In this document: positions 39,016 through 43,552 of the stretch, piece by piece
Layout: every line of letters begins with the position of its first letter
Position numbering within the stretch: position 1 is the first letter of the stretch
Assembly: GCF_014297575.1 (NCBI RefSeq)
Contig: NZ_CP060412.1
Location: 3,844,001-3,908,000, forward strand
Origin: Dyella telluris
GTDB lineage: Bacteria > Pseudomonadota > Gammaproteobacteria > Xanthomonadales > Rhodanobacteraceae
DNA length: 64,000 nt
Reading direction: 5' to 3'
Position numbers and translations under genes: made by a program
The notes under the pieces: model-generated
Database searches by the model: none
The model's input: the letters and a program-made list of their open reading frames with translations, nothing else
What the model was told of the DNA's origin: nothing

Positions 39016-40713
39016 ATGGGAAAAGAGACACCGGATATCGTGCTTGAGCCGCATGAACTGCGTGCGGTCAACGAGGCGCTCAACCGCGTGCAGGCGGTGA
39101 TCGAGTTCGACCTGAAAGGGAAGATCCTCACGGCCAACGGCAACTTCCTCCATGCGCTGGGCTACACGCTGGAAGAGATCCGCGGCCAGCATCACCGCAT
39201 GTTCTGCGAGCCCAGCTACGCGGCCAGTGCCGAGTACAAGAAGTTCTGGGAAAACCTGGGCAAGGGCGTGCTCGATCGCGGCGAGTACAAGCGCATCGGC
39301 GGCGACGGTCGCGAGGTGTGGATCAATGCGTCCTACAACCCCGTGTTCGACGAGAACGGCAAGCCGTACAAAGTGGTGAAGTTCGCCACCGATGTCACCG
39401 CCAGCCGGCAGGAGCGCGCCGAGCACGAGGGCAAGATCCACGCCATCGACAAGGCGCAGGCCACCATCGAGTTCGACCTGGCCGGCCACGTGCTGACCGC
39501 CAACGACAATTTCCTCGGTGCCGTGGGTTACGCACTGGACGAGATCCAGGGCCACCACCACCGCATGTTCTGCGAGGAAGGCTACGCCGCCAGTCCGGCC
39601 TACGCCGAGTTCTGGGCCAAGCTCAACCGTGGCGAGTTCGATGCCGGCCGCTACAAGCGGTTTGGCAAGGGCGGACGCGTGATCTGGATCCAGGCAAGCT
39701 ACAACCCGATCTACGACGGCAACGGTCGCCTGTGCAAGGTGGTGAAGTTCGCCACCGACGTCACCGCGCAGGTGGAGCTGGAAGAAAGCGTGAAGCGTCG
39801 CGCCGCCGACGACCAGCGCAAGGTCGAGGAACTGCTGAAGGTGGTGCGCCGTGCCGCCGAGGGCGACCTCACCGGCGAAGTGCGCGTGGAGGGCAGTGAT
39901 CCCATCGACCAGCTCGCCGACGGCATCGGCCAGATGATGAGCGACCTGCGCAGCGTGATCGGCAAGGTGGTCGATTCCGCCGGCGGTTTCGCCGGCAGCT
40001 CGCAGGAGATCGCCGGCCGTTCCAGCAGCGTGGCCAGCGGCGCGCAGCTGCTGGGCGCCACGGTGGAGGAAATGAACGCGTCCATCGAAGAGCTCACCGC
40101 GTCGATCAACTCCATTGCCAACAACTCGCGCAGCGCCGACCAGCTCGCCAAGGACACGCATCAGGAAGCCGAACGCGGCGCCAAGGCCATCGCGCGCTCG
40201 ATCGAGGCGATGGACCTGATCAACAAGTCGTCCGAAGACATCAGCGAGATCATCAAGGTGATCGGCGAGATCGCCAGCCAGACCAACCTGCTGGCCTTCA
40301 ACGCGGCCATTGAAGCGGCCCGTGCCGGTGAACATGGCCTTAGCTTCTCGGTGGTCGCCGACGAGGTGCGCAAGCTGGCCGAGCGTTCCTCGCAGGCCAC
40401 CAAGGAAATCTCCAAGCTCATCAATGAATCGGTGAAGCGCGTGACGCAGGGCAGCGAGATCTCGCGGCAGGCGGGTGAGGCGTTCGAGAAGATCGTCGGC
40501 GGCGTCAGCCGCACCACCCAGGCCATCTCCGAGATCTCCTGCGGTGCGGACGAGCAACTGGTGGCGGCGCGCGAAGTGAGCGCGGCGATCCAGCAGGTGG
40601 CCGAGGAGACGGAGAAGTCCGCCGCCGCTTGCGACACCATTGCCCGTTCCACCACCTCGCTCACGCAGGGTGCGGAAGAACTGAACCGGATCGTCCGTCG
40701 CTTCGTGGTCTGA
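39016..40713 (+). CDS. Soluble double-PAS methyl-accepting chemotaxis receptor (BdlA-like)
   Basis: This 565-residue receptor has no membrane helix. Two PAS domains (about 14-135 and 136-257) repeat nearly the same sequence, including the HHRMFCE motif in each. A HAMP-like segment (about 268-325, [20 protein letters not shown]) is followed by the signalling domain. Its hairpin tip, near 420-450, is [20 protein letters not shown], with Phe and His where Leu and Gln are usual. No C-terminal CheR-docking pentapeptide is present. The two-PAS soluble layout is that of BdlA, which controls biofilm dispersal in Pseudomonas; BdlA itself is shorter. It is followed at 10 bp by cheR. Confidence 0.92.
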
Positions 40714-40723
40714 AGGAACGAGC

Positions 40724-41557
40724 ATGGAGATCGAGAACGATATCGACGTCGCCACCCAGCGTGCCTTGCTGGACAAGGTCCAGCGCCACACGGGCATCCA
40801 CATGGCGGAGCGCAAGTGGACGTTGCTGCAGGGACGGCTCCGCCGTCGCCTGCAGGCGCTGGAACTCAGCCGATACCGCGATTACCTCGCGGTACTGGAC
40901 GAGCGGCCGGACGAGGTGGGTGCCTTCATCAACCTGGTGACCACCAACGAGACTTCGTTCTTCCGCACGCCGCGCATCTGGGAACACTTCTGGCAGCAGT
41001 TGCTGCCGGAGTGGTACCGGCAGCATCCCGGCGCCACGCTGCAGTTGTGGTCGGCGGCAGCCTCCACCGGCGAGGAAGCCTATTCGATGGCCATGCTGTG
41101 CGAGGAATTCCGCGAGCGGCATCCGGCGTTCAAGTACCAGATCCTGGCCACCGACATCGCCAGCGACGTGCTGGCGGTGGGCAGGGCCGGGCATTACCAG
41201 GGCAAGAGCATCGAGGGGCTGCGGCGCAGCCGTCCCGATCTGCTGGCCAAGTACTTCCAGGCCTGTGGTGAGGGTTATCTGGTGGCGCCATCGCTGCGTG
41301 GTCACGTGCTGTTCCGCGGGCACCACCTGCACAAGCGCCTGGATGGTGCCGCGCGCTTTGACATCACGCTGTTGCGCAACGTGCTCATCTACTTCGACGA
41401 GCCCGGGCAGTGCAACGTACTGGAGAACGTGCGTCGTGCGATGGCACCGAACGGCATCCTGGTGATCGGTGAATCGGAATCGCTGACGCGGCTCAATGTC
41501 GGCTTCGATTTCGAGCAGCCCCTGATCTACCGTCGTAGCGAACATGCACACGCCTGA
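40724..41557 (+). CDS. cheR: Chemotaxis receptor methyltransferase CheR
   Basis: At 277 residues, this enzyme methylates receptor glutamates with S-adenosylmethionine. The N-terminal helical domain (about 1-75) precedes the SAM-binding domain with LQLWSAAASTGEEAYSMAM (about 105-123), the TDIASDVL stretch and the NVLIYFDEPGQ end, all standard for CheR. The preceding receptor is the likely substrate. It overlaps cheD by 14 bases, which points to coupled translation. Confidence 0.94.
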   Translation: MEIENDIDVATQRALLDKVQRHTGIHMAERKWTLLQGRLRRRLQALELSRYRDYLAVLDERPDEVGAFINLVTTNETSFFRTPRIWEHFWQQLLPEWYRQHPGATLQLWSAAASTGEEAYSMAMLCEEFRERHPAFKYQILATDIASDVLAVGRAGHYQGKSIEGLRRSRPDLLAKYFQACGEGYLVAPSLRGHVLFRGHHLHKRLDGAARFDITLLRNVLIYFDEPGQCNVLENVRRAMAPNGILVIGESESLTRLNVGFDFEQPLIYRRSEHAHA

Positions 41558-42026
41558 CGGTCAGGACATCCAGGTGCGCATGTGCGAGGTGAAGGTCGGC
41601 AGCGGCAACGACGTGCTGCACGCCATCCTCGGCTCGTGCGTGGGCATCGGCCTGCTGTGGCGTCGCCGTGGCCTGTACGGCATGGCGCATTGCCTGCTGC
41701 CCGAGTCGCCGCATGCGACCACGGCCGAAGGCGCCAAGTACGTCACCGGCGCCATGCCGACGCTGTTGTCGATGATGGAACTGGCGCCGCGGCACCAGGA
41801 GGAAGTGGAGGCGGTGATCGCGGGTGGTGCCTGCATGGTGCAGCACGCCACGCCGCCGCGCCACGGATTGATCGGCGAGCAGAACGTGCGCATGGCGCAG
41901 CGGCTGCTGGCCGAAACCAGGATCAGGGTCGTGCATGTCGAAGTAGGTGGCGAAAGCGGTCGCCAGCTCGTGATCGACTGCGCGCAACACCAATTTGCGG
42001 TCCGCACGATTGGCCGCACGACGTGA
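41544..42026 (+). CDS. cheD: Chemoreceptor glutamine deamidase CheD
   Basis: The 160-residue protein deamidates receptor glutamines to glutamate, creating methylation sites. The catalytic Cys 32 lies in ILGSCVGIGL and the catalytic His 49 in GMAHCLLPES, which is the standard spacing. The C-terminal NVRMAQRLLAETRIRVVHVEVGGESGRQL is conserved in CheD. The start overlaps cheR; the gene is followed at 14 bp by the CheW-repeat gene. In organisms with CheC or CheY, CheD can be controlled by them, but no CheC is seen here. Confidence 0.93.
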   Translation: MHTPDGQDIQVRMCEVKVGSGNDVLHAILGSCVGIGLLWRRRGLYGMAHCLLPESPHATTAEGAKYVTGAMPTLLSMMELAPRHQEEVEAVIAGGACMVQHATPPRHGLIGEQNVRMAQRLLAETRIRVVHVEVGGESGRQLVIDCAQHQFAVRTIGRTT

Positions 42027-42040
42027 ACCGGAGCATTGCC

Positions 42041-43552
42041 ATGGAATCCTCGAGCGCATTGACGGCCCGGCAGGACGCCACCGAAATGTTCGGCTCGTTC
42101 CACCTGGGAGACACCGAGCTGGTGCTGCCGGTGGCGACCGTGCAGGAGGTGGTGAACTACCCCTCCGTCGTCACGCAGGTGCCGCTGGCGCCGTCCTATC
42201 TGCTGGGCCTGTTCAATCTGCGCGGCCGGCTGATTCCCATCATCCATCTTGGCCAGTTGCTGCAGGTGGCCGATCGCGGTGCACGCGAAGGTTCGAAGAT
42301 CGCCATTGTCGAGTTCCGCCAGGGGCGCATCGGGCTGCTGTTCGATGCCACCGGCGAGATCCTTCGCGTGTCGGGCGAGCAGAAGGTGATGTTCAGTGAA
42401 GCCGGTGCGACGTCGTCGATGATCGGCGGTGCGCTGAAGCTGGATGGCGGCAACCGCATCCTGCAGATCCTCAACGTGGATGCCTTGCACGCCCTGCACG
42501 ACATGCCGATGCCCACGGGCGACGCACAGGCGCTTGAGCCCGCGCGGCAGCGCGCTGCGCAGGGGCAGCGCCGCCAGGGCGTGTCCTTCCGGGTGAACGA
42601 CACGCGCCTTGCCCTGCCGATGGGGGCCATCCACGAGATCATCCGCGTGCCCGAGCTGCTCACCTCCGTGCTGGCCAGTGAACTGTGCCTTGGCATGCTC
42701 AACCTGCGTGGCAATACCGTGCCGGTGGTCGACTTCGCGCGTTTCCTGGGGTTGTCGCGCGAAGGTGCCGTCGCCGTGGCGCCGGGAGATTTCGAGGACC
42801 CGCGACGCATCGTGGTGCTGCGCCAGAAAGACAGGGATGTCGGCCTGCTGGTGGACGATGTCGAGAGCATCGTCGGCTATCGCGACGAGGAGCTGCTGGC
42901 CATTCCTTCGTTCTGCGCGGAACGGCCGCAGCTGTTCACCGGCTGCATCAGCCAGCAGGGTGGCCCCGACATCCTGCTGATCGACGAAACCGCCCTGTTG
43001 AGCGATGCCATCGTGGCCGACCTGACGAAGGGGCATCGCGAGCTGTATCAGCTGGAGTCGGCGGCCGAACGTGGGCAGGGCAGGCGCCGCAGCGGCGTGC
43101 GCGAAACCTATGTGACGTTCCGGCTCGACCAGCTGATGGGCATGCGCATCGACCAGCTGCGCGAAGTCATCGATTTCCCCGCTACCGTGATGCAGCCGCC
43201 GGGTGCGCCGGACTATGTACGTGGCGTGCTCAACCTGCGTCGCAAGCTGGTCACCATCATCGACATGCGCGTGCTCTACGGCATGAAGGGCTACGCCAAC
43301 CTGCAGGCCGCCAAGGTGCTGGTGGTGGAAAACGACGAAGAAAAGTTCGGCCTCGTGGTGGATGCCATCGAAAATATCGTGACCATCGACGCGGCCGATA
43401 AGATCGGCGTGCCGGGCGTGCTGCGCAACCAGATCGACCGCTCGCTGCGCGATGACATGCGCGAGGTGGTGGAGCTGCCTGACCAGAGCACCTTGCTGTT
43501 GCTGGATGCCGCACCGTTGAAGCAGCGCCTGGGAGCCGCGCCGGTGCATTGA
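42041..43552 (+). CDS. Triple-domain CheW coupling protein
   Basis: The 503-residue protein consists of three consecutive CheW domains (about 16-150, 180-325 and 350-490). A single-domain CheW is about 160 residues, so this is a genuine threefold fusion. Each unit keeps the receptor/kinase contact core: GLFNLRGRLIPIIHLG near 55-70, GMLNLRGNTVPVVDF near 217-231 and GVLNLRRKLVTIIDM near 393-407. Receiver and HPt domains are absent, so it is neither CheV nor CheA. ATG 42041 follows CCGGAG and begins directly before the first domain. It closes the mcp-cheR-cheD-cheW cluster. It probably binds up to three receptors or kinase P5 domains, inferred from the intact NLR cores. Confidence 0.9.
   Translation: MESSSALTARQDATEMFGSFHLGDTELVLPVATVQEVVNYPSVVTQVPLAPSYLLGLFNLRGRLIPIIHLGQLLQVADRGAREGSKIAIVEFRQGRIGLLFDATGEILRVSGEQKVMFSEAGATSSMIGGALKLDGGNRILQILNVDALHALHDMPMPTGDAQALEPARQRAAQGQRRQGVSFRVNDTRLALPMGAIHEIIRVPELLTSVLASELCLGMLNLRGNTVPVVDFARFLGLSREGAVAVAPGDFEDPRRIVVLRQKDRDVGLLVDDVESIVGYRDEELLAIPSFCAERPQLFTGCISQQGGPDILLIDETALLSDAIVADLTKGHRELYQLESAAERGQGRRRSGVRETYVTFRLDQLMGMRIDQLREVIDFPATVMQPPGAPDYVRGVLNLRRKLVTIIDMRVLYGMKGYANLQAAKVLVVENDEEKFGLVVDAIENIVTIDAADKIGVPGVLRNQIDRSLRDDMREVVELPDQSTLLLLDAAPLKQRLGAAPVH

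Follow-up and report, generated by a model that had tools for sequence, protein, structure and literature searches.

A chemosensory cassette without its own kinase in Dyella telluris: a soluble tandem-PAS receptor paired with a triple-CheW protein, CheR and CheD

How can a chemosensory gene cluster operate that encodes a receptor, two receptor-modifying enzymes and a coupling protein and leaves out the kinase CheA? The question is raised by four closely spaced genes at positions 39016-43552 of a 64,000-nucleotide stretch of the Dyella telluris genome (C1:3844001-3908000 of the single 4,991,029-base contig C1; hereafter the window). As the first-pass annotation of this DNA had described, they encode a soluble double-PAS receptor, the enzymes CheR and CheD, and a protein of 503 residues composed of three CheW domains. 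Comparison with other genomes revealed the same four genes at 35 distinct loci, at none of which a cheA gene adjoins them. Our best guess is that the cassette acts through coupling to a distant CheA of its host (probability of the whole chain of steps roughly 0.5). The features of the cassette are as follows.

39016..40713, plus strand: soluble chemoreceptor, PAS-PAS-(HAMP-like)-MCPsignal, 565 residues (Pfam domains, match to Tsr)
39079..39792, plus strand: two tandem PAS domains of the receptor, residues ~22-136 and ~144-259
40066..40068, plus strand: first Glu of the methylation-type motif ATVEEMNAS of the receptor, 88 residues ahead of the tip Glu, the spacing of Tsr
40330..40341, plus strand: receptor tip, consisting of Glu (Tsr E391), His, Gly and a Leu that replaces Tsr R394
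40724..41557, plus strand: CheR methyltransferase, 277 residues (PF01739, E = 1.7e-44)
41544..42026, plus strand: CheD deamidase, 160 residues, Cys of the GSC motif present
42041..43552, plus strand: triple-CheW coupling protein (CheW3-like), 503 residues (three PF01584 stretches, E = 3.8e-74)
42080..42496, plus strand: CheW unit 1, residues ~14-152, with the equivalents of E38, R62, G63, P67, D107 (as Glu) and R140 retained
42569..43006, plus strand: CheW unit 2, residues ~177-322, with E38, R62 and G63 retained, Ser at D107 and no Arg at the R140 position
43097..43537, plus strand: CheW unit 3, residues ~353-499, with E38 and R62 retained, Arg401 replacing G63 and Thr405 replacing P67

Pfam analysis of the receptor identified two PAS_3 stretches and one MCPsignal stretch, together with a HAMP stretch of 24.9 bits (cut-off 25). 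The maximum of its 19-residue hydropathy profile was 0.96, indicating a protein without a transmembrane segment. The signalling part comprises 248 residues and matches 248 residues of E. coli Tsr (query 2-249 versus Tsr 267-514), so that both are of equal length (36H). A second methylation motif lies 7 residues further on, 81 before the tip and again at the Tsr spacing; the third is found 74 residues after the tip. By sequence, the nearest solved structures of the PAS domains are the sensor-protein PAS pair 3ewk, DosP and aerotaxis receptors. The gaps between the receptor gene and cheR (10 nt) and between cheD and the triple-CheW gene (14 nt) make a common operon likely; cheD overlaps cheR by 14 nt. 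A sigma-70-like promoter site was not found near the cassette, the upstream alignment of 11 loci being partly misaligned, and Rfam gave no match within the window.

The kinase is lacking in the window and present in the genome at a distance. When the whole window was scanned for similarity to CheA, CheB, CheY, CheW, CheR, CheD, CheZ and methyl-accepting chemotaxis protein (MCP) queries, CheC not being among them, the four proteins of the cassette alone were returned. Pfam analysis of 23 further open reading frames, a part of those in the window, revealed no CheA, CheB, CheY-type receiver or CheC, and according to Pfam the triple CheW itself has no receiver domain, unlike CheV. The absence of CheA, CheY, CheB and CheC on both sides, as annotated before, was thus confirmed within these scopes. 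A CheA-CheY-CheB operon just beyond the window, of which the cassette might be an extension, was looked for and rejected, since the nearest of the three CheA-type genes is 0.56 Mb away.

C1:1129118-1131112: CheA-type gene
C1:1140930-1142903: CheA-type gene
C1:3318584-3324760: ChpA (CheA-type), the nearest to the window

The first of these belongs to a cluster at 1.118-1.132 Mb with the order STAS, receiver-like frame, cheA, mcp, mcp, cheW, mcp, cheR, cheD, cheB, mcp, STAS, in which the receiver-like frame was incomplete in the stretch read and was identified without a domain scan. This order resembles 'stage 1 F7' of PMC7184735 (papers are cited here by their PMC numbers). The second CheA gene (1.141-1.143 Mb) adjoins genes for a receiver protein and CheZ, with motA/motB-like frames recognized by eye. 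In total, CheW domains occur at 11 places of the genome, three of which make up the triple CheW, and MCPs at nine; CheR is found three times and CheD twice.

The first-pass annotation had proposed a search of other genomes for three-CheW proteins next to double-PAS receptors. From the Dyella loci plus 19 and 22 more, the four genes were obtained in 40 rows, which after removal of five duplicate records represent the 35 distinct loci. At all 35, the genes lie on a single strand in a single order, with three CheW domains per protein; this recurrence places the association beyond chance. No match to CheA or CheB was found in the stretch read at any of them (5-8 kb upstream and 8-12 kb downstream; exceptions: the window with 39/20 kb, L076 with 1.4 kb upstream and L116 with 0.1/1.2 kb), and no CheY lies within the cassette. 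The kinase-free cassette of the annotation was thus recovered throughout, with the proviso that in Dyella telluris CheA-type genes exist elsewhere. L116 is truncated within the receptor gene, and two more loci, L012 and L077, are cut by contig ends. L107, L127 and L128 have receiver-type matches of 34-41 bits in the flanking DNA, and the quartets of L073 and L075 are flanked by ordinary MCP genes. A conserved fifth gene was rejected after an all-against-all comparison of flanking open reading frames within 8 kb: matches across lineages mainly concerned a LysR-type regulator, an ABC ATPase and further MCPs, and neither their position nor their side was constant.

The closest named relatives by triple CheW are ten Dyella loci. 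Triple CheW was present in 14 of 117 genomes of the family, including five of the nine same-genus genomes listed, and in 14 of 116 genomes of the family of genome G757; the latter belongs by inference to the Burkholderiales, the relatives of one member being named Janthinobacterium, Duganella, Rugamonas and Undibacterium. More widely it is rare (5/369 class genomes at E ≤ 1e-40; 10/398 phylum genomes with a profile at E ≤ 1e-35). Close homologues also exist in Paraburkholderia and Pandoraea, seen as proteins without their neighbourhoods. Complete quartets were read in Rhodanobacteraceae and Burkholderiales, in a further family of the class and on a Ruegeria megaplasmid. The last (L080, NC_008043.1, Ruegeria sp. 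TM1040, 235967-261268) encodes a receptor with four PAS domains, and an IS3-family transposase gene is located ~0.3 kb downstream. One Rhodanobacteraceae genome (G052) harbours two complete quartets ~100 kb apart (L068, C1:128904-148388; L069, C1:229909-249372), the receptors and triple CheWs of which differ between the copies. The number of PAS domains per receptor ranges from 2 to 6, six tandem domains being found at L109 (G550) and L076 (G167) together with a tip of the same kind. A description of the quartet was not found in the open-licence literature, a coverage outside which most subscription papers fall.

The receptor and the triple CheW are very probably inherited as one dedicated pair, as judged from matching genome sets, adjacency, a shared private tip and correlated distances. 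At E ≤ 1e-50, the receptor signalling domain was found in 14 of the 117 family genomes, exactly those that have the triple CheW, with 15 copies of each, genomes within a family not being independent counts. In the phylum sample it was found in 4 of 398 genomes, in all four of which a triple CheW adjoins; G388 and G550 contain such receptors beside a triple CheW that score under this cut-off. These searches scored at most 6 candidates per genome in the phylum and at most 23 in the family, so that misses are possible. Gene-to-gene pairwise distances of all four genes correlate with r = 0.80-0.96 (34 loci). At the receptor tip, Tsr position 392 is His, 394 is Leu or Val and 397 is Ser in all 45 rows of cassette and two-gene receptors (40 distinct loci), and position 380 is Phe in 44 of the 45. 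Seven of eight other Dyella telluris receptors were read at position 394, and all have Arg.

The two modifying enzymes appear to belong to the same partnership. All 35 quartet receptors have methylation-type motifs on both sides of the tip (at -88 and/or -81 residues and at +74), and their C-terminal arm is exactly 126 residues long (35/35), whatever the number of PAS domains. The two positions before the tip match those of Tsr; for the motif at +74, an identical motif search gave no counterpart in Tsr or Tar, and another Dyella telluris receptor has one at +73. Five loci are reduced to two genes, receptor and triple CheW, without cheR and cheD (L109, L112, L113, L115 and L122; L112 and L113 match Kushneria). 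In the first four of these, the receptors have lost all these motifs and their arms measure 92-110 residues. The receptor of L122 (G924:C7:61700-81600) has the full arm and a retained motif ahead of the tip, the motif after it being lost, possibly a half-way stage in the loss of adaptation. The loss of motifs along with cheR and cheD links the CheR and CheD of the cassette to its own receptor, which they most likely tune. The Cys motif of CheD is conserved in all 37 copies examined, and the usual His-Leu-Pro stretch was matched in 32 of these.

AlphaFold2 modelled the triple CheW as three confident CheW folds (mean pLDDT, the predicted local distance difference score, 83.0; predicted template modelling score, pTM, 0.61) connected by loose linkers. 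Each unit had been annotated as keeping the core that contacts receptor and kinase. The contact residues were surveyed with E. coli CheW numbering in 34 rows, of which 27 represent loci, the two-gene L122 included, and 7 are proteins seen without their neighbourhoods. The claim holds for the Glu38-Arg62 pair, which holds the receptor and kinase sites in alignment (PMC3828127): equivalents of E38 were present in 34/34 rows of each unit, and those of R62 in 34/34, 34/34 and 32/34 rows of units 1, 2 and 3. It fails for E18, which was seen in none of the rows displayed (33, 34 and 34 of 34), and for R40 (0/34 rows in any unit); an 84-row alignment agreed on both. Nor are the units equal. Unit 1 retains Asp or Glu at 107 and R140 throughout (34/34 each), which units 2 and 3 do not: the acidic residue remains in 3/34 and 6/34 rows, respectively, and R140 in 5/34 rows of unit 3, being outside the four commonest letters in unit 2. 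G63 was found in 30/34 rows of unit 1 and 33/34 of unit 2, and P67 in 34/34 and 24/34; in unit 3 both are absent from the four commonest letters (32/34 and 33/34 rows, respectively). According to the annotation, a unit lacking binding-surface residues would count against its reading, and this is the case in part for units 2 and 3. For the interface 2 residues R117 and F122 (PMC5181776), the alignment was ambiguous for unit 3 and nothing was drawn from it.

The contacts R40-E402, D107-R404 and E18-R394 have been modelled between CheW and receptor of E. coli (PMC6954272). A joint change of E18/R40 and receptor R394 was considered and dropped, as ordinary CheWs of Dyella telluris also lack one or both residues; weight is therefore placed only on the change of the tip and on the losses in units 2 and 3. 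The comparison of the three domains with other CheWs, likewise proposed beforehand, yielded three separate clades. In a 55-row tree each unit formed one clade of 13 rows (support 100/99, 100/99 and 100/97), and a 136-row tree reproduced these clades with weaker support (94/76, 94/97 and 85/70). A chance triplication of CheW was rejected on these grounds; the fusion appears to be old and inherited whole.

What, then, could such a cassette do? In the model that we favour, the PAS domains would respond to a cue inside the cell, such as redox state or oxygen; the kinship to 3ewk, DosP and aerotaxis receptors suggests a redox or gas signal and does not demonstrate it. The triple CheW would tie receptors into a cytoplasmic cluster, its three fused units filling half of a six-member CheW ring, a geometry assumed by analogy with the CheW-only rings of six members that are known to exist (PMC6746300, PMC10653900). 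CheR would methylate and CheD deamidate the receptor, thereby setting its state, and the cluster would recruit or bias a CheA encoded elsewhere. In Dyella telluris, the likeliest partner would be the CheA at C1:1129118, given the F7-like order of its cluster and the signalling length that the cassette receptor shares with Tsr, an F7 receptor. A trivalent crosslinker or a link to a kinase elsewhere, both put forward in the first-pass annotation, remain plausible roles, with partial F9 sets as a precedent (PMC9321776).

A CheA-type P3 domain (PF02895) was detected in 34 of the 35 genomes with a cassette or two-gene form. Within the family, a CheA besides ChpA is present in 14/14 cassette genomes versus 14/20 controls, a weak hint at coupling. 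Several observations weigh against the favoured model. Any CheA was present in 20/20 chosen controls without a cassette, in 6 of them of ChpA length only, so that the presence of CheA barely discriminates. One genome with a quartet (G167; 99% complete, 180 contigs) gave no PF02895 match; apart from the triple CheW, the one long frame there with a CheW domain comprises 1507 residues and looks ChpA-like by length, and the exception may be an assembly gap. The moderate pTM leaves the arrangement of the units unfixed by the structural model, units 2 and 3 are without several contact residues, and R394, which in all 45 receptor rows is replaced by Leu or Val, also faces D316 of the CheA P3 domain in an E. 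coli model (PMC6746300). In addition, the cassette contains no cheB, and the binding to CheA is a prediction.

Some of these observations would fit a different reading, in which receptor and triple CheW build a cytoplasmic assembly of their own and dispense with CheA altogether, the output being direct binding of an effector or a methylation state that acts on others, e.g., by titrating CheR, CheB or CheD of the host. The absence of CheA and CheB matches from the stretch read at 35 loci and of CheY from the cassette, the lost R394 together with the lost contact residues of units 2 and 3, and the quartet in G167, in which no flagellar-type CheA was detected, are in line with it, as is the assembly of F9 arrays without their CheA (PMC9321776). 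All three units, however, keep the E38/R62 pair, the P3 domain was detected in 34 of 35 genomes, and an effector gene conserved beside the cassette was not found among the flanks compared, so that we regard this reading as a tentative possibility. Its bolder form, a mobile, self-contained plug-in array that has a private receptor tip, builds its own lattice of half-rings, is insulated from host arrays and signals without CheA, appears doubtful.

F9 systems supply the closest precedent for the coupling protein. They combine DosM with a triple CheW ('CheW3'), an architecture called unique to F9; array formation in Vibrio cholerae is independent of the F9 CheA, and partial F9 sets without cheA occur in 8/2781 species and were suggested to use a CheA of another class (PMC9321776). 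CheW3 of V. cholerae and of the partial sets of Nitratiruptor and Nautilia resembles that of the cassette in its three concatenated CheW domains, the cytoplasmic receptors and the patchy distribution, and the partial sets show that a cluster with CheW3 may lack cheA and cheY (PMC9321776). The cassette might accordingly be an F9 offshoot, a CheW3 that has lost DosM, CheA, CheB and CheY and works as the partial sets supposedly do. CheW3 as the F9 hallmark and the existence of cheA-less sets (PMC9321776) would support such a descent; moreover, a profile of the cassette protein detects a triple CheW encoded in an F9-like operon (E = 8e-64), and a common origin of the triplication was not rejected (p-AU, from the approximately unbiased test, 0.139, 0.111 and 0.107). 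Yet DosM has two signalling domains (PMC9321776) and the cassette a single-hairpin tandem-PAS receptor: the latter showed one MCPsignal stretch and one tip, as did every cassette receptor with a tip read, and the positive controls L108 and L110 showed two tips. Partial F9 sets consist of dosM, cheW3 and cheBR, whereas the cassette encodes CheR and CheD and no CheB, and 98% of DosM proteins are without sensory domains (PMC9321776), in contrast to the cassette receptors with their PAS domains. The cheA and cheY genes of an F9 cluster are missing from it, and its CheW units separate from F9-like units as clades of their own in each of the two trees, which together make an F9 offshoot unlikely. 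Among the loci read, L108, L110 and L114 are F9-like operons with triple CheW, CheA, CheB and CheR, the receptor tips of L108 and L110 being 300 residues apart; L111 lies at a contig end and groups with L110 in the tree.

BdlA of Pseudomonas aeruginosa has the same soluble PAS-PAS-MCP layout as the cassette receptor; we know of no triple CheW, CheR or CheD partner of it. A BdlA-like biofilm-dispersal regulator that acts on enzymes of cyclic di-GMP metabolism, as BdlA does via the phosphodiesterases DipA and RbdA (PMC7798462), is very improbable, because the likeness suggested by the first-pass annotation concerns this layout, no NCBIfam BdlA model matched, the PAS number varies from 2 to 6, no gene of any kind, and hence none of cyclic di-GMP metabolism, recurs next to the cassette in different lineages, and the available portions of the BdlA literature do not mention such partners.

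Three further systems bear comparison. F7 clusters with Aer2-like receptors (PMC7184735) share with the cassette the order PAS receptor-cheR-cheD and the signalling length of Tsr; unlike them, the cassette has no cheY, cheA, cheB or STAS gene, a triple CheW in place of single CheWs and a different tip. CheV (PMC4742279) is, like the triple CheW, an adaptor derived from CheW and co-evolving with one group of receptors, and differs in that the triple CheW has no receiver, comprises three units and is encoded with its receptor. McpR of Caulobacter is cytoplasmic like the cassette receptor and feeds chemotaxis; the Caulobacter che operons contain CheA, unlike the cassette, and triple CheW is unmentioned in the available portion of that source (PMC10579534).

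The triple CheW is already known from F9; new here are the single-hairpin tandem-PAS receptor in place of DosM, CheD and the private tip. Unless these cassettes are classed with F9, the claim in the literature of a triple CheW exclusive to that class (PMC9321776) has to be broadened. CheA is seen as a core chemosensory part, and a cassette that omits it across classes while retaining receptor, adaptor and adaptation enzymes offers a natural test of the CheW layer alone. The private tip and the three CheW units provide a ready set for studying insulation between arrays, and the two-gene versions, most of them without methylation motifs and all without cheR and cheD, are a natural experiment on adaptation.

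Two further places in the Dyella telluris genome (G000) were recorded. An MCP gene at C1:4475361-4476902 (L042) is split by one in-frame TAA into two frames and is perhaps a pseudogene. At C1:1313198-1319295 (L040), apart from the other che clusters, a 1222-residue frame is followed by a CheR match, with CheB- and receiver-like frames recognized by eye.

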